Shown here: one piece after another, positions 1,449-52,228 of the stretch | How positions within the stretch are numbered: position 1 is the stretch's first letter | Layout: each line of letters starts with the position of its first letter | NCBI GenBank assembly: GCA_034387635.1 | Contig: JAOANU010000008.1 | Coordinates: 558,001 to 622,000 of the forward strand | Source of the DNA: Rhodosporidiobolus odoratus | Lineage: Eukaryota > Basidiomycota > Microbotryomycetes > Sporidiobolales > Sporidiobolaceae | Length of the DNA: 64,000 bases | Reading direction: 5' to 3' | Program-made: the position numbers and the translations under genes | Notes under the pieces: generated by a model | What the model saw: only the letters and a program-made list of their open reading frames with translations | What the model was told of the DNA's origin: nothing | Databases searched by the model: none

Positions 1449-4281
1449 ATGCCGTCGCTGCCCTCTTCATCCGGCCGACCTTCCCTGGACAACCTCCTCA
1501 ATTCGCGGAGTGGACGTGTGTACCATGCTGCAAGACAGGAGGAGGACACACCTGAGCTGACAGTACGCCGTCCGTCCGTTCTGGACCCGTGCAGATTCCG
1601 CTAACCCCTTTGCACCCCATACAGTTTCGAGCGGTAGTAGCCGGTCTGGCCATCGGTATCCTCCTTGCCCTTACCAACATGTACTTTGGGCTACAGACAG
1701 GCTGGATCAGCATGATGAGCTTGCAGGTGCGCCGTCTATCTTGGGATTTTGTCCGGAACGCCCTGCTGATTCCCATCCCTTCCAGGCATCGCTGCTTGGC
1801 TTCGCCATCTTCAAGGTGCTACCGCAGAGTCCTTGGTTCTCTGCTCGGCCACTTACCATCCACGAGAATGTATGATCTTGCCGCTCCAACTCTCGGCCGG
1901 CGGCTCAACGGCTTCACTATTGCAGATCGTCCTCCAAACCACCGCCGTTGCGACTGGCACCCTTCCTCTCGCTGCTGGCTTCGTCGGCATAATTCCCGCC
2001 CTCGCTCAGCTCTCTCCTGAGACTGACGACTCCCAGCCACTCGTTCTCTCCGGACGACAACTCCTAGCCTGGAGTTTCGGGGTAGCCTTTTTCGGCGTCT
2101 TCCTGGCCGTTCCGTTACGGCGACAGGTCGTGGTCAAGGAAAAGCTTGTCTTCCCGAGCGGGACAGCTACAGCGCAGGTTATTGGCGTACTGCACTCGCG
2201 ACCATTGCTGTCGTCCTCGGGTGAACAGGGAGACCGGACTGAAGCAGAGGCGAGCATGTTGAGACGAAGACGGGCAACGGCACCGCTGGAGGAGGTTGCT
2301 GAGGAAGAAGAAGCAATGCTCCGACATGCAGTTGACGATGAGATTGACGATGAGGCGATACTTGGAGCTGGGGGGACAGTAAGCAAGGCCTACGGGACGG
2401 AACAGGTTGTGGACAGAAAAGCTTGGTCAGCCTTGATGGTCAGCTTCGCTATCTCAGCGGCTTATACTGTGAGTCGTTTGGCTCCCTTTGGCTTTTTACA
2501 ATCGCTCATTTCCGCCTGCTTCGGAACCGTGTAGCTGCTCAGTAATGCCCTTCCCGTCATCTACGCCATTCCGGTCTTCGACGTCTTTGTCCCCGGTGCA
2601 GCACACGATTGGCTCTGGTGGTTCTCTCCCTCGTTCTCCTACATCGGACAAGGTATCATCATGGGCTTTCCGACAGTGCTTGGCATGAACCTCGTACGTC
2701 ATTTGATCGCCTCTTTTCCCCACAGCTACTGACGCTCGCCTACCGTAGGGCATGCTCACCGGGTGGCTCTTCCTCTCGCCCCTGGCCCACAACGAAGGTT
2801 GGGCACCAGGTCCCGTCTCTTCCACTACCTCCGGCGCCCGAGGCTGGATACTTTGGCCCGCCCTCGCCATCATGAGCGCCGAATCGATCCTTAGCGTCTC
2901 GCTCGTCGCCGCCGACCTTCTTCAGCCCTATTTCGCACGAGCGGCTGAGAAAGCTCGAGCTGGGGCGCTCTTTGTCAGTGAGGAAAGGCGGGACTCGGAC
3001 GATGAGTCCAGCGATGAGTGCGAAGAACCTCGAGGAAAGGCCGTTCCGAGTAAGGCGGAGGAGGAACCCTCGATGCAGGTCGTACTGGCGGGAATGGCTT
3101 TAAGCTGCATTGCCTGTATCGTTCTCGTCGCCATGGTGTTTGGCGAAGAGGGCATCCGGTGGTGGGCGACCGTTGTAGCGCTGTTCTTGGCGAGCGTCTT
3201 TGCGGTTCTTGGGTATGCTTATTTCCCCCTCTCTCCTTCAGATCAGTCGCCATGTCTCTCTCGCTTCTGACTAGCGAAGAGTTGATCCCTCTCCCTCCAG
3301 CGTTCGTGCGCTCGGCACGACAGACCTCAACCCCGTTTCGGCTATCGGCAAGATCTCGCAGCTCGTCTTCGCCGTCATTCAGCCCGGCAACGTAGTTGCG
3401 AACCTCGTCGCAGGCGGCATCGCCGAAGCGGGCGCGCAACAGGCAGGCGACCTTATGCAGGATCTCAAGACTGGGTACTTGTGGGGTGCTAGCCCAAAGG
3501 CGCAATTCCAGGGTCAGGTGCGGATTTTCGCTTTATCCCGTTCAATGAGAAGAGACGCTGGATTTCGCTGTCGAACTCTGCAGATCATCGGCTCGTTCGC
3601 CTCCGTCTTCGTCTCAACGGCTGTCTATTGCCTCTATCGGCGCGTGTACGAGCTGCCGAGTACCAGCTTCCCCGTTCCCACTGCTGCAATCTGGTTCGTC
3701 CGCTTCCTTCTATCTCTCCCTTCTCCGCTTACCTGTCTTTCCTTTCACAGGCTCAATCTCGCCCGTCTCGTCAACCAAGGCGAGCTACCGCCTCGTAGCA
3801 AAGAAGCGATGCTCCTCTTCGGGGGACTGTTCGTCTTGCTAGCCGCTCTGAAGGCAATTGCGAAGGTCCGCAGCGAAAGAGGCGCCGACGAAGCCAAACG
3901 ATTGGCCTGGACGAGCTGGATACCGTCGGGGTATGTCCTCCTTCTTTCCCCCAGATGCTCTCGCACACAAGCTTCGTGCTGACGATGCCGCTGGCATGCA
4001 GAATCGCTTTCTCCATCGGCTTCCTCAATACTCCTTCTTTCTCCCTCGCTCGCTTGATAGGCGGCATCGTCTCCCTCATCTACAGCTCGCGACGATCCAC
4101 ATCGGGCGGCGGCGCCTCGCACCTGGAGCATTTCGGGCTCGTCATCGTCGCTTCCGGCTTTGTGCTCGGGGAAGGATTGGCAAGCGTCGTTGGATTGTTA
4201 ATGAAGAGCGCAGGGAGCGGCGGACCGGTTAGCTGTTGGGGCTGTGATGTGGGTGGGGGAGGGTATTGCGGAGGATGTTGA
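1449..4281 (+). CDS. OPT family oligopeptide/metal-chelate transporter (YGL114W-like clade)
   Basis: Multi-exon gene for a polytopic membrane transporter of the OPT superfamily, expected to move small peptides or metal chelates across the plasma or an internal membrane. The N-terminus (MPSLPSSSGR...) leads through ...TPELT, across a 62-bp intron, into the first membrane segment FRAVVAGLAIGILLALTN, then MYFGLQTGWISMMSLQ, the family hallmark. Later exons carry KLVFPSGTATAQVI, the loop with NPVSAIGKISQL and the NVVANLVAGGIAEAGAQQAGD block, all typical of fungal OPT proteins. A charged loop of about 70 residues (RRRR...EEVAEEEEAMLRH) follows the third conserved block, and a second acidic loop (SEERRDSDDESSDECEE) lies mid-protein; both are probably cytosolic. 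I count about nine exons with GTATG/GTGCG donors. The tail ends in an odd Gly/Cys-rich stretch (CWGCDVGGGGYCGGC). The start was chosen because the first intron then joins in frame. Substrate unknown. Confidence 0.87.
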
Positions 4282-12764: not shown

Positions 12765-15145
12765 ATGCTTCGTACTGCTGGTTTGACCCACCGGATAGCA
12801 CCTCGGGTGCTTCAGGCTAGCCGGCGTCTCCAGTCGACTCTTCCTCCTCCGCCTCCCGTTAACCCACAACCTCTACCCCCGCCCGCTTCCGCTACCAACC
12901 TTCCCCTCCCTCCGCCTGGTTCAGCCCCCGCAGCACCTGAGCCCACAGCACCACTCCCTCCAGCTCGCCCCGCATCCGCAGGACCGGGAGCTGGTTCCAG
13001 GTTGCGCAACTTGCTCCTCTCGTCCGCCTTCTTCATCGGAACCAGCGCCTTCCTCTTCTACGCCTATGACACTCGCGCAGGCATTCACCGGTGCGTCTCA
13101 TACTCCTCCCCTTGCTTTCGCCCCGAGCTGATCATGGTTCGCCCGCCAGATGGTTCACTCTTCCTGCTTTCCTCGCCTTGACCCAGAACGATCCGGAAAA
13201 GGCTCACGAGCTCGCCGTCAAGGTTCTGGCAAGTGGCCTCGGTCCGGTAGACTGCGGGGTGGACGATGAGGTTCTGGCATTCGAGGTACTTCAGCCTTCG
13301 TTAGGGCCCTTTTCTCCCTTTTCCTCGGCACTGATGCTCCTCATTCTCCTTCCTGTCTAGCTATGGGGCAAGAAGTTCGACAACCCTGTCGGTATCGCGG
13401 CCGGCTTCGACAAGCACGCCGAAGCTATCGATGGGCTGTTCAAGCTCGGATTTGGTTACGTCGAGGTTGGAAGTATTACCCCGGAACCGCAAGTATGCTT
13501 GCTTTCCTTCCTGCCTTTCAGCCCGATCTCACTGTATACCTTTGTACAGCCCGGAAACCCCAAGCCTCGCCTGTTCCGCGTCCCCGAAACCGAATCCGTC
13601 GTCAACCGTTACGGCTTCAACTCGGAAGGCCATGTGACCGCTGTTGCCCGCCTTCGCGCTCGCGTGCGGAAATTTGTCCACGACTATGCCTCTATCCTCC
13701 CTGCCGAACTCTTCGCGTCGACTGCCTACGCCCACGATTCCGACCCCGTCTCTTCCTACCTCGCTTCTCCCGCTAGTGCCGGCGCTGCTCCGGCCGATGC
13801 CGTCGGTCTCCCCCGTTCCCTTGAGGAAGGTCGAGTTCTCGGTCTGAATCTCGGCAAGAACAAGGTCAGCGACCCTGACACGATTGAAGACTTCGTCAAA
13901 GGCATCGCTGCTCTTGGTCCTTACGCCGACGTCGTCGTTATCAACGTTTCGTCGCCCAACACGCCCGGCCTGCGTAATCTCCAACGCAAGGGCATGCTCT
14001 CCGAACTCCTCGAAGGGGTTGTGCAAGCCCGTAACCTCCTTCCCCTCACCGTCAAACCCCCCGTTCTCGTCAAAGTCGCCCCCGACCTCGACGACGAGCA
14101 GATCTCCGACATCGCTTTCGCCGCTACCTCCTCCGGCGTGGATGGTGTCATCGTCTCCAACACTACCATCTCCCGCCCCGCTTCGGCCGGTTCGAGCCCC
14201 GTCCTGAAGGAAACGGGCGGCCTCTCGGGACCTCCCGTCAAGCCCCTTGCCATTCGCGCTCTTTCTGCCCTGTACGAGCAGACGGACGGCAAGATTCCCC
14301 TTGTCGGGTGTGGCGGGATCTCGTCTGGACAGGACGCCCTCGACTATGCCAAGGCTGGTGCGAGTCTTGTGCAGCTTTACACTGGATTCGTGTACGGGGG
14401 GGTTGGACTGCCGCGGAAGATCAAGGATGAGCTGACGGAGCTTTTGAAGAAGGAAGGCAAGAGCTGGAAGGAGGTTATCGGTTCGGAAAGGGTGAAGAAG
14501 GTTGCTCCAGTACCGCAGCCGGCCCTTGCAGTCAAGGACAAGGCGGATGGATTGTCGGAGAAGCCCCAGCCGGCCACGCAGGAGGAGTTCGTTCGGAACC
14601 TGAACGAGGCTAAGGGTGAATTGGAGACGCTGCTGAAGGAGCTTGCCGAGGTCGAGAAGCTGCCGCCCACCGTTGGTGCTATTCCTCCCACTGCCGCTCC
14701 CACTGCCGGAATCCCTACGCCCGAGCCCGTTGCCGTTCCTGCCCCTGTCGCCGAGTCCCTCCCTCCCTCGACCGCCGCCTCATCTCCCCTCTCTACTCCG
14801 TCTTCCGCACCTTCTGCCACCCCCGCTCAACCCCTATCCGCCCCCACTCCTCCGATCGTAGCTACCGCTCCTCCCTCCGTCACCTCCGCCTTCCCCTCCA
14901 CTGCCCCTGCCCCTGCCCCATCCTCTTCCTCTTCCTCTTCGACTCCTCCAATCGTCGCCACCGCCCCTCCCCCCAAACTCGAAGAAACCCCCGTCGGCCA
15001 ATCCGTTCCCGCGTTGTTGAGCGTCGATGCTATTGCCGAGTTGCTGGATCCTGCTGCGGCGCAGGTTGGGGCTGGCGTGGCACCTACTAAGGAGAAGATC
15101 GAGGCCGAGAAGATTCAGAAGGAAGATAAGAAGAAGTGGGTTTGA
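12765..15145 (+). CDS. URA9: Dihydroorotate dehydrogenase (quinone), mitochondrial, class 2
   Basis: Fourth step of de novo pyrimidine synthesis: oxidises dihydroorotate to orotate with FMN and passes electrons to ubiquinone at the mitochondrial inner membrane. The N-terminus (MLRTAGLTHRIAPRVLQASR) is an Arg-rich, acid-free targeting sequence. A Pro/Ala-rich linker and one membrane helix (LLLSSAFFIGTSAFLFYAY) follow, typical of class 2 enzymes. The catalytic domain shows NPVGIAAGFDKHAEAIDGL, GFGYVEVGSITPEPQ, NRYGFNSEG, and VINVSSPNTPGLRNLQ, which holds the catalytic Ser of class 2. FMN phosphate-binding GCGGISSGQDALDYAKAGAS and QLYTGFVYGG close the barrel. At least three introns interrupt the 5' half. 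After the normal end (ELLKKEGKSWKEVIG) there is an extra tail of about 200 residues, with a charged helix followed by a Pro/Ala/Ser/Thr-rich stretch, which the family does not have. Confidence 0.95.
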
Positions 15146-15779: not shown

Positions 15780-16657
15780 TCACTCGACGACTTTGAGCTT
15801 GATGTCTTCGCAGATGGGCGCGAGCATGCAGGCGAAGACGCCTGCGTACTTTTCGTCGTCGCCCGAGGTAGGGTGTTGGAGGTTGGCGAGCTGAGGGAAG
15901 GAGCCGTACTTGTTGCTACTGGCGGAAGGGACGCTCTCGACCATAGTGGCGGGAGACGAAGCTGAGGAGGTCGCAGGGGAGGCGAAGAGGGAGGACAGTG
16001 GGGAAGACCTGATGGAGGATGAGGCAGGCTAGTAGGAGTTAGGTGCGAGCGGAGGAGTCGAACCTTGCTGGTTGAGCCGACGACGGCGAGCGTCGGCGTG
16101 GCCGGGATTGGCGTACAGCGGCGGTTGAAGGGTTCCACGCTGGACGAAGGGCGTGGTTGTCGATGGGCTGGTTACCGTTGCTGATGGGAGCAGTGGCTTC
16201 CTTGGCGTTGACGAGAGAAGAAAGAGGAGTGTCGCCCATCTCGAGACGGCGAGCGCTTTCCGCAGTGATGGTTGCAGGGTTACGGAGAGGACGAGAGGCG
16301 GGGATGCGCGGACCTTCGACGACTTGACGGACGGGAACCAGAGCTTGGCGCGTCGAGCATGCGAGCGACTTCCGCGGTGACCTTCGAGGTGGGGAAATAG
16401 ACCTTGCTGACTTGGGCGATGACCTTGGCGATGCTGTTGCGCTTGTCCGACAAAGCGAGGACGGTAGTTATGATGCTGGTAGCTCCGGGAGCGAGGAAAA
16501 GGCGACTGTTGCGCGACTGTCAAGAAGTGATTGAGAAGGTCCGCCATGGGGTTTAGCGCGCATGGAAGGGATGGGAACTTACGAGCCTGGTTTTGAGGCC
16601 TACAGCGAAGGCCTTGGTAGTGTGAGCGTGAGTGGGGAGGGTAGCAGCGTCGGACAT
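15780..16657 (-). CDS. Module gene 1, locus 1 copy, unknown function, probably decayed
   Basis: Exon 1 (16657-16583) encodes MSDAATLPTHAHTTKAFAVG and ends at a GTAAGT donor. Exon 2 starts at 16516 with SRNSRLFLAPGATSIITTVL, then LSDKRNSIAKVIAQVSKVYF and PTSKVTAEVARMLDAP. After that the frame reaches a stop, while an intact-looking piece in another frame (SARRLEMGDTPLSSLVNAKE) and a last piece (NKYGSFPQLANLQ..., FACMLAPICEDIKLKVVE) match the locus 2 protein. So either further introns or frameshifts are present. The final TGA lies in a GTGAGC context and could instead be a donor. This is the only one of the three copies with an ATG start. The conserved core KYRSFPQLASLRR...LAPLCEDIKLKVV is of unknown function. 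Confidence 0.5.
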
Positions 16658-17336
16658 GGTGTGGTCAGGAGTGAAGACTCGAGTGAGGTGGTGAAGAAGC
16701 GGGGAGGAAGGAAGAGAAACAGCGGTACAGGCCGAGGGCGCCTCTTATACCCCCTCCAATGTTGCTACTAGGGGTAGAAGACAACGCGACGCGCATCCTC
16801 GATGGGAGGAGACTGAAGCGGCGCAAGCTGAAACCGGATAGAAAGGAAATCGACCTCGAACCCATCACCGCTTGCTCTCACGCCCTGACCCTGCTCGTCA
16901 TGCACGCCCGGGGTGCTCAAGGCCTTCTGAGCACCAGCAGCGGGCAGTAAGGACCGGCACAGACAGCCGAGAGTGCGCACGAGGCAACGCAGCCTTCCTC
17001 GGCGGTTGAAAGACGATCTACTTCTGCTTTCTCCCTCTCTGCTGAGTGCATGCTGGTGCTCAGCGCTTCTTGAATGGTAGTCAAGGCGCAGCGGAAAGTA
17101 CCTGGGGTCTGTTTGCGGATTGGGTTGATTGCATTCCGAGCGCCACTCCAACTCGGCTGTCGCGTTCTCCGTTTTGATTCGTCCTGACACCTCCTTGCTT
17201 ACGTAGCTCTCGAGCGTACACCTGGTATCAACCGTGTCACGCGTCCAAGAGGAGGCCTACCCTCCCTCCCTTCCTCTCTCTCTTCCATTTCACTCTCCTC
17301 GCCGTGCATCAACCTTGCGATTTTCTCAGCAACTAC
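16658..17336. promoter_or_regulatory. Shared divergent promoter of module locus 1
   Basis: 679 bp separate the two start codons; the matching distances are 680 bp in locus 2 and 679 bp in locus 3. A TATA box reading GGTATAAGAGG on the minus strand (TATAAG at 16743-16748) lies about 90 bp upstream of gene 1 and recurs at the same distance in the other loci. This is a promoter by position and motif only. Confidence 0.6.
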
Positions 17337-18094
17337 ATGCCTGGCTTCACTCTCTTCAGCAGCCTCGTCAACGCGGTCAGGAGGGCCTCTCTTCCTAAAA
17401 GCCATTCCCCGAACAAGCTGTATAGCGTGCGTTCTCCTTCCGTCTTCCCCTTGCGCAACTCGCCAGCTGACCTTTTTCCCTCCTCCTCTCCTCGGCAGTC
17501 CAAAAGAAAGCGCCTCTCAACTTCGAGTATCGACTCCTTTGGCCCCTCGGACGCTCAGGTCCTCGTTCACAACTACGAAGCTGACCTCAAGCAAGAAGAA
17601 GCTGCCGCCCTCGCGATGGAACAAGCCAGGGCCAACGAATGGGCTCAGCGGACTTCCCTTTCGGTTCGAACCATCGATCAGACTACTACGTACATGGGGT
17701 CTGAGGCGCAAAAGAGCCGGGAACGCCGTCGTGGCTTGAGACCTCTTCAGATGGTATGCGCGTTTGGTCTCATTCTTCCATTACCAGACCCTGGCAGACC
17801 TATATATGTACGCAGGCGTCTACCAGTACCTCCATCACGACTGCTGCATCCTGCCGCATGTCCGTCCACCCTGCCCGTGACCCTTCCCTCCGCCCCTTCA
17901 TTCCGAGCCGCGCCTCGTCCGACTCCACCCTCTCCTCCCTTTCTTCCTCCTCTTCGACTTCGTCTTCTACATCCGCATCTTCAGCGTCTACCACCCCTAC
18001 TGTCCCCTCGCCGCTCGGCGTCGACGACCTCCTCGCCAAAATCGCTCGCCTCGAAAAAAGCTTGGTTGAGCAAATCCACCCCGAGGTGATCTGA
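17337..18094 (+). CDS. Module gene 2, locus 1 copy, truncated at the C-terminus
   Basis: Three exons: 17337-17426, 17499-17753 and 17816-18094, all joined in phase 0, giving 207 residues. Exon 1 encodes MPGFTLFSSLVNAVRRASLP. Exon 2 opens with SKRKRLSTSSIDSF, a likely nuclear signal, and continues into an acidic helix (HNYEADLKQEEAAALAMEQA). Exon 3 is Ser-rich, then LGVDDLLAKIARLEKSLVEQ, a coiled-coil-like helix. Relative to locus 2, ATCTGA replaces ATCTTG, so translation stops at HPEVI and loses the last 18 or so residues. No family recognised. An upstream in-frame ATG at 17304 would add 11 residues (MHQPCDFLSNY). Function unknown. Confidence 0.65.
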
Positions 18095-18518
18095 GTCTTC
18101 GAGAAGCATTCTATGACTTGCGTCGAGAAGATCAAGCAGCTCGACGAAAGCTGCGTGGGCGAGGCCTGAAGGGGAGAAGTCGGAAGAAAGGCTTAGAAGG
18201 TTGTACGATATCTTTATCTTGTAGATGGCGTTCTTGCTGTTGTCATCTGTGCTATGCATACCTCAATTCAGCTCCTCGAAGTGTCAATAGAGAGACGGGA
18301 GTGCCGTATACCTTCGCAGCAAAGCCCGTCGCGGTGGAGAGGGGAACAAGGGCGTCGAGAGGAAAGAATGCCGAAAGCAACAGTTGAGAATGCCACCAAA
18401 TGGAACGGCTTAGTATCCCCACCTGTACAAACGCCAGAAAAAGCGGTCCGGACTGTCTCTCGGCGGCCATAAGAGAGAGGCTCACTTCTTCCCTTTCATT
18501 CTCACCACGTAAGCTGCA

Positions 18519-35727: not shown

Positions 35728-36478
35728 ACGTCTGGCGCTGCTACCTTCCTTGCTCTCGCTCACACTGTCAAGGCTCTCTCTGCAGGCATCAAGGCCAGAC
35801 TGGTATGTTCACTTTCCTTCCATGCTGCGCTGAACCCCCTGGCTGACCTTCTCAACCACTTCTTGGTAGTCGCGCAACAGTCCTATTATTCTCACGTCCG
35901 GCGCGACTAGCGTCGCTTGTACCGTTTTGACCTCGCCAGACAAGCGTGCCAGTGTGGCCAACGCCATCTCCCGGATCAGCAAGGTCTACCTCCCCGACTC
36001 GAAGGTCACCGCGGATATCGTCCGCAAGCTCAACATCTTCAAGCCTCATCCAACCCCCCAAGTCGGTCAGGAGCACCACAGCCATGGACGTCTTACTACC
36101 GAGAATTTGACCGCTCGCACCCAACTCCTACTCGCCTCCTCGACTTCCTCCGCCTCCTCCACCGCCACGTCGGTCGAAGGCGTGTCGCATCCCGAAACCA
36201 AGTACCGGTCGTTCCCTCAGCTCGCCAGTCTCAGACGCACCACCACGGACGGCAAAGAAGAGTACGCCGGTATCTTCGCCTTCGTGCTCGCCCCCCTGTG
36301 CGAAGACATCAAGCTCAAAGTCGTCGCCGGCGCCGCCCTTTCGCCAGCCGTCGACTCGAAAGAGCTTCAGCTAGCCCCTCTCCATCACTTCGCCTCCGTT
36401 AGCGACGACCTGTACGCAGACATCTTGGCCTTGATGCGTACGTCCGAGGTGTCGGATCCTGCAGCTCCCGCCTGCTAG
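35728..36478 (+). CDS. Module gene 1, locus 2 copy, long open frame but no ATG
   Basis: Exon 1 (35728-35802, 25 codons) and exon 2 (35870-36478) join in phase 0 to give 227 codons without a stop. Reading: TSGAATFLALAHTVKALSAG..., SRNSPIILTSGATSVACTVL, TSPDKRASVANAISRISKVY, LPDSKVTADIVRKL, a Ser-rich linker, then SHPETKYRSFPQLASLRRTT, GIFAFVLAPLCEDIKLKVV, and LHHFASVSDDLYADILALMR. The position that is ATG in locus 1 is ACG here, and no in-frame ATG occurs between the upstream stop (TAA at 35638) and exon 2. Translation from ACG, another upstream exon, or a dead gene are all possible. The long open frame argues the protein was under selection until recently. No family recognised. Confidence 0.5.
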
Positions 36479-40843: not shown

Positions 40844-42080
40844 TCAAACATCCTGCGAAGCGAGGGAGATCGGCGTGCTGGAGCTCCTTCGGGGCGAAGG
40901 GAGCGGAAAGGCGACAGGTCGGGGCTCGAGGTCTTCGCACAGGGGGGCGAGCATGAATGCGAAGATAACGGCGGACTCTTCTTCGCCGTCCGTGGTGGTT
41001 CGTCGGAGACTGGCAAGCTGAGGGAACGACCGGTACTTGGTTTCGGGATGAGACAAGCCTTCGACCGACGTGGCGGTGGAGGAGGCGGAGGAAGTCGCTG
41101 GAGAGGCGAAGAGGGAGGACGATTGGGAAGACCTGACGGAGGATGAGGCAGGCGAGTAGGAGTTGGGTGCGAGCGGAGGAGTCGAACCTTGCTGGTTGAG
41201 GCGTCGACATCGAGAGTCGGCATGGCCGGTGTTGGCGTACCCGAGGAATCCGGCGACGGAGCGCCGCTAGGGGGTGAGAGGAGGGCAGGTGACGAGGCTG
41301 GTCGGAGGCGAAGTAGACGAGGAGGTTGAGCTCGAAAGGGATAAGCCGAGGGTGGTTTGGCGACGAGGTGTGGGTGGGGGCGGACGACGCTTCGCTTGCG
41401 GGGTCAGCGCTCATAGAGCGTCTCATGTGCCTAGGATTGCGGGTGTCGCGGCCATCTACGATGTAAGAGACCGCAGCGCGCCTAGCGCAGCGAGGAGGGC
41501 GAGAGACGGCTCGGGGGCGGTCCATCGTTGCAGCGGCGGCGCTGGCGTTCCATCTCGGGAGGAGTGCATGGTTGAAGATGGATGGAAAGGTACCCTGGTC
41601 AACGGCGCAGGAGGAGGTAACCGCCTCAACTGGAGGACGAGGTTGAGGGGACCGAATTACAGCCGCTGCGGCCGCCAAAGGGTTCCACGCTGGAAGCAGG
41701 GCGCGTTTGTAGATGGGCTAGTTGCCGCTGTGGGCAGGAGCGGCGGCTTCCTCGGCGAGGACAAAAGGAGGACGACGAGTGTTGCCCCTTTGAGTGGGTC
41801 AGAGATGTCTGCGGCTGCGGCGGCGGAGATCCCGGTTGTAGGGTGATCCCGGGCGGGGTGACGCTGGTTGTGCACACCTTCGACGACTTGACAAACGGGC
41901 TTGGGCACGGGCGCGTCGGGCATACAAGCAACATCCGCGGTGACCTTCGAGGCGGGGAAATAGACCTTGCTGACTTGGGCAATGACCTTGGCGACGCTGT
42001 TGCGCTTGTCCGACAAAGCGAGGACGGCAGTTATGATGCTGGTAGCTCCGGGAGCGAGGAAAAGGCGACTGTTGCGCGAC
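40844..42080 (-). pseudogene. Module gene 1, locus 3, exon 2 remnant cut off by Crypton
   Basis: Exon 2 starts at 42080 and reads SRNSRLFLAPGATSIITAVL, LSDKRNSVAKVIAQVSKVYF, PASKVTADVACMPDAP, PVPKPVCQVVEGVHNQR, then stops after a Pro/Ala-rich stretch. In another frame near 41050 the conserved block SHPETKYRSFPQLASLRRTT and IFAFMLAPLCEDLEPR is still readable, then ends at SQDV. The frame changes, the extra internal sequence and the 3.75-kb insertion in intron 1 argue that this copy is dead. Exon 1 lies at 45901-45972 beyond the transposon. Confidence 0.7.
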
Positions 42081-42094
42081 TGTCAAGAAGTGAT

Positions 42095-42104
42095 TGAGAA
42101 GGTA
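42095..42104 (+). repeat. Left 10-bp direct repeat of Crypton (TTGAGAAGGT)
   Basis: Left copy of TTGAGAAGGT. The same 10 bp occur at 45849-45858 on the other side of the element. They occur once in locus 1 (16531-16540) and once in locus 2 (35846-35855, reverse complement), at the same place in gene 1 intron 1. Confidence 0.9.
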
Positions 42105-42128
42105 ACATTATCTACTCCCCCCCACATA

Positions 42129-42160
42129 GAGTCCGGACTCGGTCTTCTGGGCGAGTCCGG
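42129..42160. repeat. Left subterminal GAGTCCG cluster of Crypton
   Basis: GAGTCCGGACTC, a perfect 12-bp palindrome (42129-42140), is followed by CGAGTCCGG at 42152-42160. Related motifs lie near the right end. They are candidates for recombinase binding sites. Confidence 0.65.
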
Positions 42161-42849
42161 TTGCGTGTGGATAAGTCTGTCCGCTCTTCTCTTGCTCGTT
42201 GCCTCGCTTGTTCAGCCTCAATCTTTGCACATCTACACTATCAAAAAGCTCAAGAGAAGGTACACAGGCGTGGTAACCGCCGCATGTTGTTGCCCGTCTG
42301 CACCGCCTGACCTCACCGCTTTTGAGTTCACGCCGTCTCTCTCATTGACTGCAACTCGTGCTGAATTGGATACCCACTGCGGGTACTTCTGGGAGTCTTC
42401 AGGTACGTCTGACCTCTCACTATGCACTTCAAGCTCGCAACCAGCGCTTCGTCCTCGTCCTGCTCGCGCTGCCCTTCACGACCTCGTCATGGCACTCTGA
42501 CCTGACTTACGCCTGCAGACACGGTGTTAGTCCCTCTTTCAGCTCTGGAATGACCCCCTGCTGCTCATGTCAGCGCAGCGGAGGGCCGTCCCAGACCGAT
42601 CTCTCTGCCACCCATCCGCTCTTGACCTTGTTCCGCATCCTGCTATCCTTCAAAGCGGTATGCAGTGCAACTGTCGCCCGTAGCCGCACTAGAAGGTTTG
42701 GCATCAACTCCCGCAACAGTCTCATTACTGCAGGGGAATGAAGATTGGACCCGACAAAGAACAGAAAGCGACAGCGAGAAAGGATTGCAACGACAAATGC
42801 CCGCAGCTACAGAAGGAAGAAAACTCAAAGTGACAGAAAGAAGAGAAGA
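42161..42849. other. Crypton 3' region without a recognised gene
   Basis: About 690 bp between the left subterminal motifs and the recombinase stop. A plus-strand frame at 42358-42741 (128 codons) has no recognisable similarity. It probably holds the 3' UTR and element-specific non-coding DNA. Confidence 0.45.
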
Positions 42850-45677
42850 CTATACAGGAAGTGGGATGTCAAGCGAAAAGTCTGCTTTGAGTAGCTTGCG
42901 GAGAGCGTCGAGGCTTTTGTTCTTCTGTTGGTTCCGAAAAGTATCGAGGGCTTTGACCGCTACTTCCCCAGTAACCTTCTTCTTCTTCATGATCCACCTT
43001 ACCTTATCCACCACAGCTTTCTTCCTGTCCCATTGCTTCCTTAGCTTGTCCACCTTCCGCAACTTCTTCAACTCCTCGCTTCCCTCCGGGTAAGCCTCTT
43101 CAATACTCTTCTGCCCACCCACACCTTCTGTCCACTCCCGCCAGGTTTCATCAACAGTCTTGAGCGCCCCGTTGAGCTCAAGGGGAAGGGCATGGGCGAC
43201 AGGCGAGGATAAGGCGCAGGTCGAGGGAAAGGCTGCAGCGGAAGTGGAAGCTGTCGGGGTAGATGTGGACGGCGCAGGATCAGCGCCACCTGTCTCAGCA
43301 TGTAGTCGGACAGCGACGCGACCGTTGAGCACGTCCGAGAGGAGGTTGTGGCTGCTAGAACCGGATTTTTCGACTTTCTCAGAAAGTGTCGAGACGATAT
43401 TGATGAGCTGAAGAAGCTGCTGGCGTTGATGGTCGAAGCCAGTGTCGATGTGCTTGGTGAGGAGGGGAAGAACACGCTCAAGCTCAAGGGCAAAAGGGTC
43501 TTGCACCGTCGAAAGATGCTGCTTCATGTGCTGTTCGAAAGCGAGGAAGGCGGGGGAAGAGAAAAGAGGGTGCAGGAAGATAGGGTGCGTCGAATAGGTG
43601 GCACGGATGCAAGCTGCGTCTTGGATGATGACCGGGCGAAGGCGGAGCAGGAGTCTGAGGAAGTTGATTGCGGAGATGGTGGGGAGGGCACGATCGCCTT
43701 CTTCGAGGCGGTGGAGCCTACGGGCATCGGAAGTGGACAAGCAGAACAGGGACAGAGGGAAGAGAGGGAAGAGAGGGAAGAAAGGGAAGAAAGGGAAGAG
43801 AGACATATATTAGCACTTGTTTGCTTGACGGGCCAGGAAGAAGGAGGCGGGTAAAAGGAGGCAAAGGATAGGCCGGAATGTCCGTGAAAGTGGGAGGACA
43901 GGAGGTTGTTCAATACGCACCACTCATCCGCTTCCGGAAAGACTTGACGCAGCAACTCCTCGGGCACCTCGATATCGCGTTGCAAAAAGTACATTCCTCC
44001 TCTCGCATCAAATCCGGCATGAACTCGGATCACTTCTCTTGCTAGCCCCGTCAAGTAGCATCGATCAACCGCATCCACATTCCACCGGCCTGCTGATCGA
44101 ATGTCCGCCTTGGCTGCCCCTCCCAAGTCCGCCATCCTTGACCCGCTGCCTCGAAAGATGTGAGTGACGGCTTTGGTGGGAAGTTTTGTGGCTTTCTTGG
44201 CGCGTTGAACAGAGGCGTTGAACGTCTTATAGAGAAGGGGGTCGAAGGGATTAGTGCCGGAGAAAAGGAGCTTGAGAGTAAACCAATCTTCAGATGTGGC
44301 GAAAGAAGGGAATTGGGTGTTGTCGGGTGGACAGGACTCCTGGGAAACTTGGAAGCTGACGATACAAGCATGTCAGTGTACAAGACTCAATGACAGGGAC
44401 AGTGACCGTGACCGCACCGTTGAAAGAGATAGAGGCCCATAGCGCCAACCCCGCATACCTCCGCCTGTTCATGCCGAGTGAAAGCGGCGTACTCCGTCCT
44501 TCCGTCCTTGTTGGTCTTGCCGTTATCGAGAATGACTACGACGGCAAACGAGGGAGTGGGCCCTTCTTTGGGGAGATCAACGGCAAAAGTGTCGGCGAGC
44601 TCGATGGCGAGGATATTGCTTGACCGCAGCATACCGTAGTGACCGATACAGAAAGCGAGGCGGTCACGCAGACCTTCTGCTGTGTCGCGCTTCATGCAGG
44701 AAGTGAGGAGAGCGGAGAATTGTTCGGTTGTGGTGTAACCATCTTGTAGAGAGCCTGAAAATGAGCAGTGCTGATTAGTCCTACAACCTTCACGGTACAC
44801 AGAAGGAGCAGAGCACGTACCAATACCTCGATCTGTGAAAGCGTCGCGCTTCCGCTGATGCTTTGAGCGCTCATAACCCTCCTTGATCAACCTGACCGCC
44901 GGATGTTTTCCCGGATTCTCGAAGGTGTTCATGCCCAGAGCCTGCTGCTCTCGCCATAGATCGACGATGGCATATATAGTTTGCTCGACTACGGCGCCTG
45001 AGATGACCTTCTGGGCGATAGCTGCAATCAAAGCAAGAATGAGCGGAAATAGCGAGAAAACCCAGAGGAAAGGTAACACACGAGCAGCAATGCCATCTGT
45101 TCCTTCAGCAGCTGTGAACCATCCTCTGCGCCATCTTCGTCTTCCTCATCGCTATTGTTCCCTGGGGGAAGCGACGCCGACTTCTCCTTGCCCTTGCCCT
45201 TCCCTCCCTTGTTCGTCAAAGTCGATTTCTTCGACTTTGGGCCGCGCTTCTGCGGTGCACGCCCAATGACGACTTCCCGCAGGTAAGCTACAAGCTTCTC
45301 GCCAGTAACAACACGTCTAGGTCGAAAGCCGAGGCAGATCAGCTCGACAATCGGCTCACAGCAGGTATCAAAAACTCAACGCACCCGCTCATGCCCAGTC
45401 CCAAACCATCGCACCACTCCTGGAAAGCCTTCTGCTTCCGCTCATACGCCCTGATCGTGTTCGGGTTGCGAGCAGCCCTGCTTTCTTCGTACACCTGGCG
45501 AGGAAACCTCGGCCAACCGCAACTCTCCCTGAGCAGCCCTCGTAGCGGACGAGCGAGACGGTGAGGCTGTTGCTGAGGGTGCTGTGTACGGCGCTGCTCG
45601 CTTCCCTTTGCTCGAGCGTGAAGAAGAAGCGGGAGGCATGATGTGCGGAAGATGAGAAGAGGCGGGAAAGGGGGCAT
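42850..45677 (-). CDS. Crypton tyrosine recombinase with GCR1_C domain
   Basis: Site-specific recombinase that should excise and insert the element. N-terminal part: NPNTIRAYERKQKAFQEWCD, a core-binding helix bundle start, then VVTGEKLVAYLREVVIGRAP and a basic/acidic linker (KGGKGKGKEKSAS). The Ndc10-like catalytic region has LAFCIGHYGMLRSSNILAIE with the first catalytic Arg, AVTHIFRGSGSRMADLGG with the H-x-x-R pair, and AGRWNVDAVDRCYLTG with the Trp and nucleophilic Tyr. So R, H-x-x-R, W and Y are all kept. The C-terminal domain ALKTVDETWREWTEGVGG...RKQWDRKKAVVDKVRWI matches GCR1_C, the DNA-binding fold usual in fungal Cryptons. About seven exons. The first exon is unsure: the frame that leads into the core is open from ATG 45677, while ATG 45639 (MPPASSSRSSKGK) is in another frame. 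Looks intact. Confidence 0.88.
43748..43802 (+). repeat. Purine microsatellite-like tandem repeat in a Crypton intron
   Basis: Units of GGGAAGAGA / GGGAAGAAA are repeated about five to six times. On the gene strand this is a C/T tract just upstream of the exon encoding EEGDRALPTISAINFLRLL, so it forms an extended polypyrimidine region of the intron. Confidence 0.75.
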
Positions 45678-45786
45678 GCTTCTTATCCCTTTGACTGTTT
45701 CCCCTCTCTGGTATTGAAGGTAAGGTGTAGATGATAAGCGAAGTTATTCCATGCAGACTATATGATAAGTCAGATTATTCACCCGT

Positions 45787-45838
45787 GAGTCCGTCGGACT
45801 CGGCTGGACTCGCCCTGCCAAAAAAATTCCGAGTCCGG
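45787..45838. repeat. Right subterminal GAGTCCG cluster of Crypton
   Basis: GAGTCCGTCGGACTC (inverted repeat with a 1-nt centre, 45787-45801), GGACTCG (45806-45812) and CCGAGTCCGG (45829-45838). These mirror the motifs at the left end and lie within 75 bp of the element boundary. Confidence 0.65.
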
Positions 45839-45848
45839 ATTGACGGGT

Positions 45849-45858
45849 TTGAGAAGGT
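45849..45858 (+). repeat. Right 10-bp direct repeat of Crypton (TTGAGAAGGT)
   Basis: Second copy of the 10-bp repeat. It is followed by CCGCC as in the uninterrupted copy at 16531-16545, so the host sequence resumes here. Confidence 0.9.
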
Positions 45859-45900
45859 CCGCCACGGGGTTTAGCGCGCATGGACGGGATGGGAACATAC

Positions 45901-45972
45901 GAGCCTGGTTTTAAGACCTACAGCGAAGTCCTTGGCAGTGTGAGCGTGATTGAGGGTAGCAGCGCCAGATGT
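45901..45972 (-). pseudogene. Module gene 1, locus 3, exon 1 without ATG
   Basis: 24 codons matching exon 1 of locus 1 (SGAATLNHAHTAKDFAVGL), one codon shorter, followed by a GTATGT donor. The start position reads ACA instead of ATG. Exon 2 is 3.8 kb away, past the Crypton. Confidence 0.65.
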
Positions 45973-46651
45973 GGCGTGGTTAGGAGTGAAGACTCGAGTG
46001 AGGTGGTAAAGAAGCGGGGAGGAAGGAAGAGAGACATTGGTACGGGCTGACGGGGGCCTGTTATACCCCCACCATGTTTGATACGAGGGGTAGCAAACAA
46101 CGCGACGCGCATCCTAGATGGGAGTAGACTGAAGTGGCGCAAGCTGAAACCGGATGGAAAGCAAATCGACCTCGAACCCGTCACCGCTTGCTCTCACCCC
46201 CTGACCCTGCTTGTCATGCCCGCCCGGGGTGCTCAAGGCCCTCTGTACACCAGCAGCGGGCAGTGAGTACCGGCACAGACAGCCGAGAGTGCGCACGAGG
46301 CAACGCAGCCTTCTTTAGCGGTTGAAAGATGATCTACTTCTGCTTTCTCCCTCTCTGCTGAGTGCATGCTGGTGCTCAGCGCTTCTTGAATGGTAGCCAA
46401 GGCGCAGCGGAGAGTACCTGGGGTCTGTTTGCGGACTGGGTTGATCACATTCCGAGCGCCACTCCAACTTGGCTGTCGCGTTCTCCGTTTCGATCGTCCT
46501 GACACCTCTTTGCTTACGTAGCTGTAGCGTGTACTCCTGGTATGAACCATGGCACGCATCGAAGAGGAGCCCTACCCTCCCTCCGTTCCTCTCTCTCTTC
46601 CATTTCAATCTCCTCGCCGTGCATCAACCTTGCGACTTTCTCAGCAACTCC
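45973..46651. promoter_or_regulatory. Shared divergent promoter of module locus 3
   Basis: 679 bp between the gene 1 start position and the gene 2 ATG. The gene 1 TATA box has decayed to GGTATAACAGG (around 46062-46067, minus strand) but keeps its distance of about 90 bp. Confidence 0.55.
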
Positions 46652-47403
46652 ATGCCTGTCGTCACTCTCTCCAGCAACCTCGTCAACGAGGTCAGGGGGG
46701 CCTCTCTCCCTGGACGCCAATCCTCGAACGAGCTGTCTAGCGTGCGTTACCCTTCCGTCTCCCCCTTGCGCTACTCGCTAGCTGACCTTTTTCCCTCCTG
46801 CTCTCCCCGGCAGTATAACAGACTGCGCCTCTCAACTTCGAGTATCGACTCCTTCGGCCCCTCGGACGCTCAAGTCCTCGTTCACAACTACGAAGCTGAC
46901 CTCGAGCAAGAAGAAGCTGCCGCCCTCGCGATGGAACAAGCCAGGGCCGACGACTGGGCTCAGCGGACTTCCCTTTCGGTTCGAACCATCGATCAGACTA
47001 CTACGTACATGAGGTCTGAGGCGCAAAAGAGCCGGGAACGCCGTCGTGGCTTGAGGCCTCTTCAGATGGTATGCGCGTTTGGTCTCATTCTTCCGTTACC
47101 AGACCCTGACAGACCTCTATGTGTACGCAGGCGTTTACCAGTACCTCCATCACGACTGCTGCATCCTGCCGCATGTCCGTCCACCCTGCCCGTGACCCTT
47201 CCCTCCGCCCCTTCATTCCGAGCCGCGCCTCGTCCGACTCCACCCTCTCCTCCCTTTCTTCCTCCTCTTCGACTTCGTCTTCTACATCCGCATCTTCAGC
47301 GTCTACCACCCCTACTGTCCCCTCGCCGCTCGGCGTCGACGACCTGCTCGCAAAATCGCCCGACTCGAGACAAGCATGGCCGAGCAAATCCACCCCGAGG
47401 TGA
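46652..47403 (+). pseudogene. Module gene 2, locus 3 copy, frameshifted
   Basis: Exon 1 (MPVVTLSSNLVNEVRGASLP) and exon 2 (acidic helix DLEQEEAAALAMEQARADDW) follow the same plan as the other copies. The basic patch at the start of exon 2 is changed: SKRKRL has become YNRLRL, so the probable nuclear signal is lost. In exon 3 one C is missing in CTCGCAAAATCGCC (CTCGCCAAAATCGC in locus 1). The frame therefore leaves the coiled-coil helix and ends at SKSTPR. Without that deletion the frame would run on through the same helix as locus 2. The deleted base and the altered patch point to a decaying copy. Confidence 0.6.
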
Positions 47404-47645
47404 TCTTGGTTTTCGAGAAGCAGATTATGGGTTGCGTCGAGAAGATCAAGCAGCTCGACGATGGCTACGTTGGCGAGTGCTGAAGGGGAGAAGTCGGAAG
47501 AAAGGCTCTCAGTAGGTTGTACGATATTCTTATCGTGTATATGGCGTTCTTGCTGTTGTCATCTGTGCTATGCGAACATGAAACAAGCTCCTGAAGTGTC
47601 GTTAGAGAGAGAGAAAGGAAGCGCCGTTTGCCTTGGGAGCATGAG

Positions 47646-47856: not shown

Positions 47857-49844
47857 TCATCTTTCTACATCCATCCCGCTCGTGCCGTTCCCATCCACAG
47901 CCGGGGGATCCAATGCAGCTTTCGATTGCGCATCGAGATAGGCGGTGCCGGCCGGTGTTAACCAGATTTTGATTGTCGGATCCTGCCAAACGAAGAGCAG
48001 GAAACAAGGTATATGTTGTAAGAGGGAGCACAGCGGTAGGTGGTGAGGCGGGAAGGAGGTGGAAGTGCGGGGTAAGAGCAGTCAGTGTCGCGTGGACGGA
48101 GGGAAACACGTAGAGAGGCAACGAGGACATGGACGTACCTTCTCAAGTGCGCCGGTGGCAAGGATGCCCGCCGACGCGTGGTGAGCGAGAGTCATCACAA
48201 CATCTGCGGCAATGCAAAGACTGAACATGCGCCTTCTCTTTCGCCCGATGCGTTAAACCCGTCGATCGATAGTGGTACTACCGACGCTCCACGTGACCTG
48301 TCGTGCGGCGGAAGAGAAGGGCTTACCTCGGTGAGCTTCCCACACCTCAACGACCTCTCGAGACTGAATGTCCCACTTCATTACTTTGTGATCTTCGCTT
48401 CCTGCGAGGAGATAGCGGCCTGAAGGGGTGAGGACGGAGGGTATGCAGAATCTGCGAAGGAAAGCGGCGTTCAGTAACGGACCGACGAGAGATCAAAAAA
48501 AGAAGGGTTCCAGTAAGGCGAATGAGGTCGCGACAGCTCAAGGTGGAAAAAGCAGCGGATAAAGGTATCGAAGAGACATAGCTACGCACTTTCGATTGAC
48601 GTGCCCCGAATAGGTCTTGACTACCTTGTCCGCTTGGATGTCCCACAGCCTGATAGTGGAGTCGAGGGTGGAAGTGAAGAGTAATATGGAATTCGGGGTG
48701 AAGCGCACATTTGCTCTGCAAAGTATTGGCAAGAACGCAATCAGGGGGGATCTAACAGCCACGAATGGGACAGGAAGAACTGACAGTGGTACGTTATCCT
48801 CATTGGCGAGGGTCTTGAGACATTGACCTGTCGAAGTATCCCAGATGCGACTGATGCCAGGAAAAAGAGGTTAGGACTATGGCAAGAAAGATGGAGGGCA
48901 GTGGAACCGGAAACACATGTAGCCGTCCCACGATCCCGACACAAGCATCGTTCCATCGCGGCTGAACTGGACAGCGCTGACTGGTTCTGAATGAGCAGGC
49001 AGTACCCGCATGCAACGACCTGAACAGAGAGACGAAGGGTCAGGTCAAGCTTGCTAGCTAGAAGCAGCGCTTGCTGGGAAGGGGAACAGCAGCAGTCAGC
49101 GCACCTTTCTGTACGTCCCACAGCCTGACCGTCTCATCCATTCCACCACTTGCAACCACATCCCCTCTCGGACTCCAAGCAATGCAGAAGACAGCGCTCA
49201 GATGTCCTTCAAGCACTCGCTTTGCCCCTTCCGTTCCTTTCTCCTCACCCCCGTCTGTCCCGGTCGAAGTATCATGTGCTGCGTCTGGTGGTACAGCTGA
49301 AAGATCCCAGATCCGAACGGTGCGGTCGTCGGAGGCGGAGGCGAGATGGGTAGAGTCGGCAGAGAAAGCCACGTCGGAAACGCCTTGGGCATGAGAGCGT
49401 AAGGTACGATGGAGGCTGAACGATGGTAGGGAGTACAGGTGAATTGGCGAGTCGGCCGCTGCAGCAGGGAAGGGAAAACACGCATCGGCTGGGGGAAGAA
49501 ATGCGAAGAGAACGAGAAAGCTCACAAGCAGAGACTAACCACCGCCCGTCTGGGCTGAATTTGACGGATGAGACGGATTTCTTGTGGCCAGATAGCGTGA
49601 ACCGCAAGCTATAAGAGCCATCGACACCGGTCTGTGCATCACCGCCTACTCCGTCTTCAGGCTGCGCGCCGTGCGTAGCTGGCGGTGTTGCTCTACCTGA
49701 GCCTGCCGCCCGAGAGGCCTGATCCTGCGTCGGCGAAACTGTGTTCGAGTAGGTGTTGACAGGAGAGTATTGATCCAGACGAGGTCGCTTGGCTGCCGGT
49801 TCTTCGAAGTCGACGATACTCGAGGGATGTCCTTGAGGCTCCAT
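47857..49844 (-). CDS. WDR5/Swd3 WD40 protein of the COMPASS (Set1) complex
   Basis: Seven-bladed propeller that holds the histone H3-K4 methyltransferase complex together in the nucleus. The N-terminal tail has [12 protein letters not shown] (likely nuclear signal) and a disordered stretch. The blades read [57 protein letters not shown], an insert of about 35 residues, [145 protein letters not shown], and [15 protein letters not shown]. The last blades with the E-D-N-x-P...YSGH spacing are diagnostic for WDR5. Acidic insert between blades 2 and 3 is unusual in length. About seven exons. An upstream Met at 49868 would add eight residues. The start lies about 105 bp from that of ataxin-10 on the other strand. 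Confidence 0.92.
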
Positions 49845-49948: not shown

Positions 49949-52228
49949 ATGGCAGAATCCACTCCACCGACTGCTGAACAGCTCGTAAAGTACCTTGAGA
50001 GCTACAGTGTCTCAGCGGGCTCGCCAGAGGACCTTGTTCAGCTTTTGCGGCCACCTCGCCTCGGATTACGCTCGTCGCCGAATCTTAGGTCCGTTCCGCC
50101 TCACCAAGCCGTGCAGGATTTAGCTGACTCGCTCGATCATGTAGAAGCGCGTATGGTTCAACGCCTGGCTTCTGGCTGGCCCTCGCAATGGTGTGGGAGG
50201 TTGAGACAGGACGCCTTGAAGCCGACGACAAAGCTGCCATCCCTTCCACCACTGCGTTGGCCGCTTTTCTGCTCAGCTTGTGCACTCAAGAGCAGCAGAA
50301 TCAGCTACAGGCCATGTGCGCTTCGTCCGTTGTTTCTCGAAGCTCGTCCTGATCTCTTTCTTCTCGCAGCGAGCATGTCGAGCCGAAACTTCGCCGCGTT
50401 CTGCTTACCGCTTCCTCTCTTTTCAATCTGGAAGACGCCACATGTGATGCGTTCAGCCCTCCTATGCGAGAGTACACTGACCTTTTCCTACCTGCAGATC
50501 AAGGCATGACCCGAATTTGCTGTCAAGCCCTCGCAAACCTGGTGACAGGCAATGAAGCAGCTGCAGCTGACTTATTTGTTCGAAGACTTAGTCTAGAAGC
50601 GGAAGACAGCCTGCTACAGTATGTCTTCCGCTTCCGATCGGTGCGACTTGCGCTTACCGTTCCTTCCGCAGGCGTCTTCTCGCTTCTCCCGATCAGGGTA
50701 CTCTGCAAGCCATCCTCATCTTCCTGCTCAATTCGGCACATGGTAACCGAGACCGAGCGTACGTTCGTTCTACGATACTGGCTACCTCCTATTTATCAGG
50801 GGGTCCTCCTTTTCCGTAGGCTCCTTCTCGGTAGCTCGAAGACCGGCGCGGCGCTCATCGACCGGTTAATGGTCCTCGTCGGCGCACTCTTCGACGACGA
50901 GACACCCGAAGCAATCGCGCAAGAGGAGTTCTCGTCGGACGTCTTTGCCTTGACGTGCGTCACCTCATATCTGCGGCCATTCCTTACCACGCTAAGCGGC
51001 TCTTCCTCGCAGCTTCGCCATCATGCAGCAGATTATCTCTCTTGGAGTATTCTCCGAGACCTACCAAGGGCACGCTCTGTGAACTTACCTCGCTCTCCCG
51101 TGCTAAAGAACGAAACTTACTCTTCTTGACTTGTGCAGCATGCCGGGATTCGCCATCGACCCATCTCTCGTCACTATGCTCAAGATGCTGGATGGCTTCC
51201 TCGCTCTCCCCGGTCGCGCTTCTTCGCCTCCCTCTCTCGCGCTCGTCCTCTTCCTTGTCGAGCTGCTCGCTCACCTTTCTGCCCATTTGATCAACAAGGG
51301 CGCGCAAAGAGTGAGGGATGCAGCCGATGCAGCGGCATTTCAGGGCGTCGTCCTCGTGCTACACTGTCTGTGCTCTATAGGACTAGCACTGGACTGGGAA
51401 GCCGAGCAAGAAGGGCTGCAGCAGAACAAGGTCGAGCACGCGCAAGGAGAGCTGGTGGAAGGCGTTGTGCAGGTCGTCGGTACGCGCCTCTCCGCTCCTT
51501 CGCTTCAGGTGAAGTATCTCGTCTGACCATTATCCCTGCAGACCTCTTGCGATTTTCGCAAACCCTCCTCCCTCCCCCCGGTTCTACTCGAGCAACTTCC
51601 GATTCTGCCCCTTCTCCTGCCACACTTTCCCCAAAGATCGTCGAGATCAATGACTCTTCCTCGTCTACTCCTACTACAATGTCAGATCCACCGCTCGCTA
51701 TCCCTGCTCTAGCCCAGCTCCAACGAACCTGCGCCCAATTCCTCGGGATCGTTTCGTTCTCTCCACCCGGGACTACAAAGACGAGCGGGGCGACTCGAAG
51801 AGCGCAAGATCGGACAAAGGAGGCGGGAGGGCTGGGGATCTTGTTGAGTATGTGTCAGATTGATGAACGGAATCCAAGTCCGTTTTTCTTCCTTTCCTGT
51901 CCCTTCTGTCTCTATTCCAAAGCGGCCAGAACATCTTTGCTTGACAAGTTGGCGGAGCGTACCCTGGAGCTCTGCTGCGACGAGTAATTCTGACTCTTGT
52001 TCTGTCGTCCAGCCATGCGTGAGCATGCCCTCTTCGCCGTTCGCAACCTTCTCAAGGGCAACCAAGAGAACCAGGACTTCGTGTACGTCTTCCTGTTACT
52101 TGCGTCTCTTGTTGCCGAAGTATCTGCTGATGGCTTCTACCTCACACAGAGAGGGCATCAAGCCCCAGTACATGGTCGGAAAGGGGGGCGAGCTGCTAGA
52201 TCTGCCGCCGGCGTTGAGAAAGGAATAG
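49949..52228 (+). CDS. Ataxin-10 homologue (Ctr86 type, armadillo-like)
   Basis: Helical-repeat protein of the ataxin-10 family; fungal members have roles in cytokinesis and growth. Opening exon MAESTPPTAEQLVKYLESYS. Later exons include ICCQALANLVTGNEAAAADL and the helical stretches EDSLLQRLLASPDQGTLQAI-type, VLCKPSS... and LIDRLMVLVGALFDDETPEA. The C-terminal ataxin-10 domain is clear: MREHALFAVRNLLKGNQENQ-DFV, then an intron, then EGIKPQYMVGKGGELLDLPP-ALRKE at the end. These match the family's conserved EHALFAIRNLLEGN...Q block. About eight to ten exons, several short, so individual junctions upstream of 51100 are less certain. No membrane span or signal. Confidence 0.82.

Follow-up and report, generated by a model that had tools for sequence, protein, structure and literature searches.

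Why is a host repeat in the genome of the basidiomycete Rhodosporidiobolus odoratus interrupted by 3745 bp of other sequence, and why does the same 10-bp word, TTGAGAAGGT, stand on both sides of the interruption? The locus lies in a stretch of 64,000 nucleotides (assembly GCA_034387635.1, contig JAOANU010000008.1, positions 558,001 to 622,000 of the forward strand), which is called the window throughout the paper. The insert is very probably a DNA transposon of the CryptonF type, with a tyrosine recombinase (YR) and a single host motif as its specific integration site. It encodes a YR with a GCR1_C domain, has fixed ends, entered a pre-existing TTGAGAAGGTC target, shows one core per junction and is found elsewhere as a head-to-tail pair with a single core between the units. 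The original prediction of a Crypton, complete end to end at a pre-existing TTGAGAAGGT(C), was borne out, with CryptonF as the group. It had missed the over-represented host motif, a sister family at the same site, the tandem locus and two copies that localise the crossover.

Comparing the window with itself, a family of host repeats was found with three members, near 16.3-18.3 kb, 34.2-36.0 kb and 41.9-47.6 kb, of which the last is split. The left part of the split copy (41876..42103) is a paralogue of 16312-16540 (91.7% identity over 230 bp by self-BLAST), the right part (45849..47610) of 16531-18295 (91.4%); on the first copy, the matches of both parts have solely the 10-mer 16531-16540 in common. 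The insertion is real, as had been claimed: the host repeat is broken exactly at the 10-mer, which is present singly at 16531-16540 (+) and 35846-35855 (-). At the third locus a sequence match places the left direct repeat, or attL core, at 42094..42103 (+), and the right direct repeat, or attR core, at 45849..45858 (+), where a host C follows and completes the full motif TTGAGAAGGTC. The repeats thus flank both sides of the 3745-bp insert (42104..45848) as described before; the earlier start was one base off, the left repeat beginning at 42094 and not at 42095. For two more matches to the 10-mer, the next base is A (at 48137) or T (at 52046) and not C; both look unrelated to the insertion. 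Empty target sites reading TTGAGAAGGTC were found at 16531..16541 (+) in the first sister repeat and at 35845..35855 (-) in the second, more diverged one. Counting the 10-mer in on each side, the paralogue at 16531 agrees with the occupied locus in 70 of 70 bases on the left and 65 of 70 on the right, the one at 35846 in 54 of 70 and 35 of 70 (ungapped). Though a paralogue from the same window and not an allele of the third locus, the copy at 16531 represents the empty site well.

Using the element without its repeats as query, the organism's own genome (24.8 Mb, 45 contigs) was searched. With the core left out in this way, a total of 19 matches were obtained, comprising eight full-length copies 99-100% identical and with the same ends, which define family A and the limits of the element, together with a right end, left ends at four other places and matches of shorter length. 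All 12 left ends, those of the eight A copies and the four others, adjoin TTGAGAAGGT. The same 10-mer stands on both sides in eight of eight A copies and is therefore not a chance match. The flanks are otherwise unrelated, with 17-32 of 100 bases agreeing in any pair among six A copies (two tandem copies were excluded), and the base before the core agrees in one of seven independent A sites. The other copies were thought at first to offer a possible refutation by quite different ends; the seven further ones are near-identical and carry the same ends and repeats.

These copies bear on two other explanations. DDE-type elements make target-site duplications which include repeats of about 10 bp, and the length observed here lies within that range. 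However, the duplicated sequence is identical at every locus, no terminal inverted repeats were seen and the sole recognised gene encodes a tyrosine recombinase, so that the probability of a DDE-type cut-and-paste element with a 10-bp duplication from staggered cuts is negligible. We were also aware of the fact that a single assembly was analyzed, in which indels in repeats could be polishing errors. An assembly artefact at the third locus is nevertheless extremely improbable in view of eight copies on five contigs with differing flanks and base-exact junctions, and of a related protein in R. odoratus.

Aligning the A copies, 17 substitution columns were found. The window copy (L001) and a second one (L002) are the most diverged, each with 7-10 substitutions from any other copy, and the other six differ from one another by 0-4. 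The picture of an element caught in the act is not supported, the window copy being among the two most diverged of the eight. At C15:481119-488618 (L015) two A copies lie head to tail with a single TTGAGAAGGT between them. This tandem arose either when one copy entered the repeat of another already in place or when a dimer circle integrated, and its junction has the sequence expected of a circle junction. Searching with core-containing patterns, which detect ends that carry the core and no others, 12 left and 14 right ends were found (the right ends from eight A copies, four copies of the sister family, one truncated and one diverged element), with 0 matches for the reversed controls. A diverged element (L013, C1:346711-349316) ends on the right like family A (about 82%) and matches the N-terminus of the recombinase weakly; on the left it is similar, in part twice, to host sequence near a different site (L043, 74%).

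The sister family, termed B, consists of four copies and a truncated one on contig C7. Three of the four are 99.3-99.7% alike, the fourth (L012) stands at 81%. With family A they have in common the left 66 bp (88%; 85% for L012) and protein similarity. The left end has TTGAGAAGGTAACATT in all 12 A and B copies, and the right end either TTGAGAAGGT or TTGAGAAGGC. In family B the left repeat is TTGAGAAGGT in four of four; the right one is TTGAGAAGGT in two copies and TTGAGAAGGC followed by C in the other two (L011 and L012). Judged from these junctions, the targets of L011 and L012 would have been TTGAGAAGGCC, a natural variant of the host motif that occurs in the genome. In the simplest reading the element supplies base 10 of the left repeat and the host that of the right repeat, which would place strand exchange inside TTGAGAAGG. 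The two host bases preceding the core match the element's own in all four B copies (GA, GA, GA, AG), and identity therefore reaches 11 bp or more there. The same two copies speak against TTGAGAAGGT belonging to the element at both ends, as long terminal direct repeats around a shorter or arbitrary true target. The identical 10-mer on both sides of all A copies could be read in this way, but the right repeat of L011 and L012 ends in C and not in the element's T, and the empty paralogue already has the complete TTGAGAAGGTC. Terminal repeats of this kind are very unlikely.

Site-specific integration would then proceed as follows. The element would exit as a circle bearing one TTGAGAAGGT, its recombinase, acting on subterminal sites, would pair the core of the circle with a chromosomal TTGAGAAGG, and strand exchange within these 9 bp would insert the circle. 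After insertion the left junction would hold the element's base 10 and the right junction the host's base 10. As each insertion makes two targets of one, tandem insertion becomes possible.

Candidates for the subterminal sites were found at both ends, which are not alike beyond the core and the half-sites. On the left a palindrome, GAGTCCGGACTC (42129..42140), sits 25 nt after the core in A and B (L010 identical, L012 with one mismatch), followed by a second half-site, GAGTCCGG, at 42153..42160 (+). On the right, a cluster of GAGTCC/GGACTC half-sites extends over 45787..45841 in the window copy and is present in A and B, the last half-site being close to the core. In the window copy this last one reads GAGTCCGGATT (from 45831), the sole exception among the 14 right ends found, as the other 13 read AGTCCGGACT. 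There are 7-8 GAGTCC half-sites per element (window copy, L010, L012) versus 0.28 per kb elsewhere in the window. The palindromes and half-sites are the best candidates for recombinase arm sites.

The minus strand of the element encodes the recombinase in six predicted exons. Exons 1 (45385..45639), 2 (45082..45316) and 3 (44821..45021) are followed by exon 4 (44418..44754) with HYGMLRSSN, holding the catalytic R, and NGKTN, holding K, and by exon 5 (43921..44355) with THIFRGSGSR (HxxR), AGRW (W) and RCYLTGL (Y); these motifs were assigned from the columns of homologues, and R, K, HxxR, W and Y are conserved in the homologues covering them. Exon 6 (42850..43717) encodes the GCR1_C domain (Pfam PF12550, E=2.2e-11) and matches residues 439-726 of protein P0001 at 92%. 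An intron inside exon 1 was considered and dropped after comparison with P0001. A 726-residue query joined from copy L002 matched NDC10_II (6e-46) and GCR1_C above the Pfam cut-off, Phage_integrase reaching only 0.089. Compared as proteins alone, its closest relative is the R. odoratus protein JCM11641_007367, 71% identical over the whole query, followed by two partial Sporobolomyces johnsonii recombinases (60% and 51%). On these protein matches the host probably belongs to the Sporidiobolales. The annotated R. odoratus protein is without the stretch holding the first catalytic Arg, probably an annotation gap. A sequence search of the PDB with the catalytic exon gave 0 matches up to E=1. YR retrotransposons of the DIRS/Ngaro type carry a reverse transcriptase (RT) and split or inverted terminal repeats. 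Unlike these, the element has no such repeats at its ends, and no RT domain was among the Pfam matches of the exons, which were recombinase domains only (no RT-specific search was made). Searching the genome for GCR1_C gave at least 14 places (eight in family A, four in B, two in a third family described below) and no separate GCR1_C host gene. A domesticated Crypton as host factor was rejected, as all of these places belong to the three families.

What is the site to the host? TTGAGAAGGT occurs 1703 times in the genome versus 72 times for the reversed pattern, TTGAGAAGGTC 1361 versus 16 times. Allowing one mismatch in the 11-mer, 4009 sites versus 578 for the control were counted, about 3400 above control. 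Single-position variants numbered 626 versus 50 in the control for position 1, 56 versus 33 for position 3, 543 versus 38 for position 4 and 399 versus 50 for position 10. Position 3 is nearly invariant, and position 4 tolerates other bases. In 25 sampled sites, C was found at -5 in 13 and at -4 in 14, a purine at -3 in 19 and at -2 in 22, and A at +12 in 17; this sample, which is not random, comprises the first 30 sites on C1 after removal of three that lack C at position 11 and of two that are tandem duplicates. The extended motif CCRRNTTGVGAAGGTCA has 181 occurrences versus 0 in the control, and in the window it and its variants were found at 3858, 9058, 15253, 16531, 20316, 30659, 35845, 39844 and 45849. 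By these counts the host motif is (C)(C)RRN-TTGVGAAGGTC-A, and the core of the element matches its commonest form, so that targets would never be scarce for the element. As strict and tolerant positions stand side by side, the motif was read as a protein-binding site and not as decaying scars. It is probably the site of an abundant host DNA-binding factor. The motif as coding sequence was rejected, since 19 of 30 sampled sites fall outside predicted coding segments (crude codon model; three of the 30 are tandem duplicates). No published record of the motif was found among the open-access papers listed by a search for 10-mers and by one for promoter motifs in these yeasts, as judged by title. 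On C29:51392-60012 six TTAAGAAGGTC sites lie in one orientation at a spacing of about 1722 bp, which suggests a tandem repeat array. A long open reading frame (ORF) for dihydroorotate dehydrogenase lies at 13499-15145 (+) of the window (Pfam DHO_dh, 1.2e-71), a host gene whose frame is unbroken over the domain.

The 1361-fold motif could also be the scar of past Crypton traffic, with each insertion or decayed element leaving a TTGAGAAGGTC behind. Insertion doubles the site, and the orientation of neighbouring motifs speaks for scars and against a host motif. Among the matches listed for consecutive TTGAGAAGGTC sites in the first 1.05 Mb of C1 (C1:1-1053693), 13 pairs closer than 5 kb have the same and three the opposite orientation, versus 16 and 31 of those farther apart. 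Some of the close pairs may be older or non-autonomous insertions; at least one with the same orientation is a tandem duplicate with near-identical flanks (C1:7028/10695). However, the variation is strongly position-specific (positions 3 and 4), unlike neutral decay. The extensions of the motif, a left-hand CCRR and a right-hand A, are not element ends, though the right end of the element (CGGGN) resembles the left extension. Furthermore, sequence in common around the motif was rejected, with no 8-mer within 150 bp occurring in more than five of 28 sampled loci, and non-autonomous A or B derivatives as the source of the motif were likewise rejected in view of the 12 left and 14 right element ends found. 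Taken with these points, an origin of the motif as a scar is unlikely.

Several findings weigh against site-specific integration at a host motif as read here. No circle, excision or new insertion was observed, and all data come from one assembly. At the right end of the truncated B copy on C7, TTGAGAAGGTT stands in place of TTGAGAAGGTC. A third family, which is Crypton-like, encodes GCR1_C and is present as two units of 4883 bp in tandem at C2:338000-351400 (L060/L061), does not use the TTGAGAAGGTC site: it has no such core, its outer junctions have only about 3 bp in common (about AAT) and it contains one GAGTCC half-site. The site preference is therefore not general to the Cryptons of this genome. 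As to the motif itself, four of its eleven positions were varied one by one. Pfam matches near the motif were obtained for three of 20 nearby ORFs and one of ten ORFs in the window, too few for placing the motif relative to genes, and an averaged profile of 24 motif sites did not decide between a promoter and a terminator position. Finally, all 12 recombinase genes (eight A and four B) carry one or more disrupting frame shifts or stops each, as measured against P0001 and the partial P0002, with family B tested solely over the part covered. No copy can therefore be assumed to be autonomous now.

For the window copy, the earlier statement that all catalytic residues and GCR1_C are encoded stands, together with frame breaks in exons 1 and 2, and the proposal that the element may be active is not supported. 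The exon-1 break, determined by comparison with L002 and P0001, is common to the window copy and five others, and each of the eight A copies also has a private shift, in the window copy an indel in exon 2. Of the four B genes, that of L012 is interrupted by a stop in its C-terminal part and the other three by frame shifts. Losses of a single base and short tandem duplications (1-8 bp) account for many of the lesions, which differ between copies though these are at least 99% alike (within A, and among three B copies). In family A, indels and substitutions have similar frequencies (16 indel runs versus 17 substitution columns). Decay, host attack, selection for inert copies or an unpolished assembly may have caused the lesions. 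A wider reading would connect these lesions with the motif. In its evolution the core may have copied the site to which an abundant host protein binds, with one word of 11-17 bp recognised by both the recombinase and the host factor; occupancy by the factor would keep sites open or guide docking, making the host regulatory network a landing grid, and the host would answer by disabling copies, the recombinase genes of 12 of 12 (A and B) being broken, largely by differing short tandem duplications or deletions. We put this forward tentatively, as possible rather than probable.

How does the element compare with known systems? Starships are far larger YR elements which carry cargo and a DUF3435 captain. 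Unlike these, the element described here measures 3745 bp, has no recognised cargo gene and gives NDC10_II and GCR1_C as its Pfam matches above cut-off; it is a small basidiomycete CryptonF. In the sections used here of a study on fungal and oomycete CryptonF (Kojima and Jurka, 2011; PMC3212892, citing Goodwin et al., 2003), Cryptons are described with 4- or 6-bp repeats, 6 bp for most fungal CryptonF, and a proposed circle intermediate, and Gcr1, Cbf2, Msn1 and Hot1 as derived from CryptonF. The element resembles the CryptonF of these sections in its tyrosine recombinase with GCR1_C, the lack of long terminal repeats, low copy number and short direct repeats on which recombination presumably acts. 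It differs from them in the length of the repeat (10 bp in A, at least 11 bp in common in B, versus 4-6 bp), in a motif abundant in the genome and in a crossover localised by mismatched targets. Direct repeats are present but, at 10 bp in A, exceed the published range and would represent a variant. In the part of PMC12153272 considered, direct repeats of 2-12 bp are given for 19 of 20 Starships, and for Tardis of Aspergillus fumigatus a conserved direct repeat of 9-11 bp; it contains a 10-mer that is strongly over-represented in the host and that its authors regard as a possible transcription-factor site. Tardis, likewise a YR element, is the closest precedent; its motif, CTACGGAGTA, differs from the one found here. 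CryptonV families are specific for microsatellites according to a Repbase report cited in PMC8869645. As far as this citation goes, they are likewise a Crypton group with a repetitive target, but one of microsatellites in, by the cited title, cnidarians, compared with a dispersed 11-17 bp motif in a fungus. A term search of the main text of PMC12093110 on Sporidiobolales genomes found neither "transpos" nor "Crypton". No Crypton with this kind of target appeared in the titles and abstract starts of the papers listed, a scope which mostly covers open-access work. The insertion is a CryptonF insertion with a repeat longer than the published ones found, which at the same time is a motif of the host genome, and the precedent is in a different YR element.

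Crypton integration is hard to define, as the ends are without obvious repeats and the published direct repeats measure 4-6 bp. Here, a core, TTGAGAAGG, its polarity and candidate binding palindromes follow from the combination of 12 copies with a tandem junction, two mismatched targets and a single close empty site. This placement of the core is sufficient for the design of an attP/attB assay (forms TTGAGAAGG, TTGCGAAGG and C10). The data furthermore expose a genome-wide DNA motif of a red yeast (probe form CCAAGTTGAGAAGGTCA). Together with Tardis they suggest that different fungal YR elements may settle on abundant host motifs, in which case their target sites could be used to discover host regulatory sequences.

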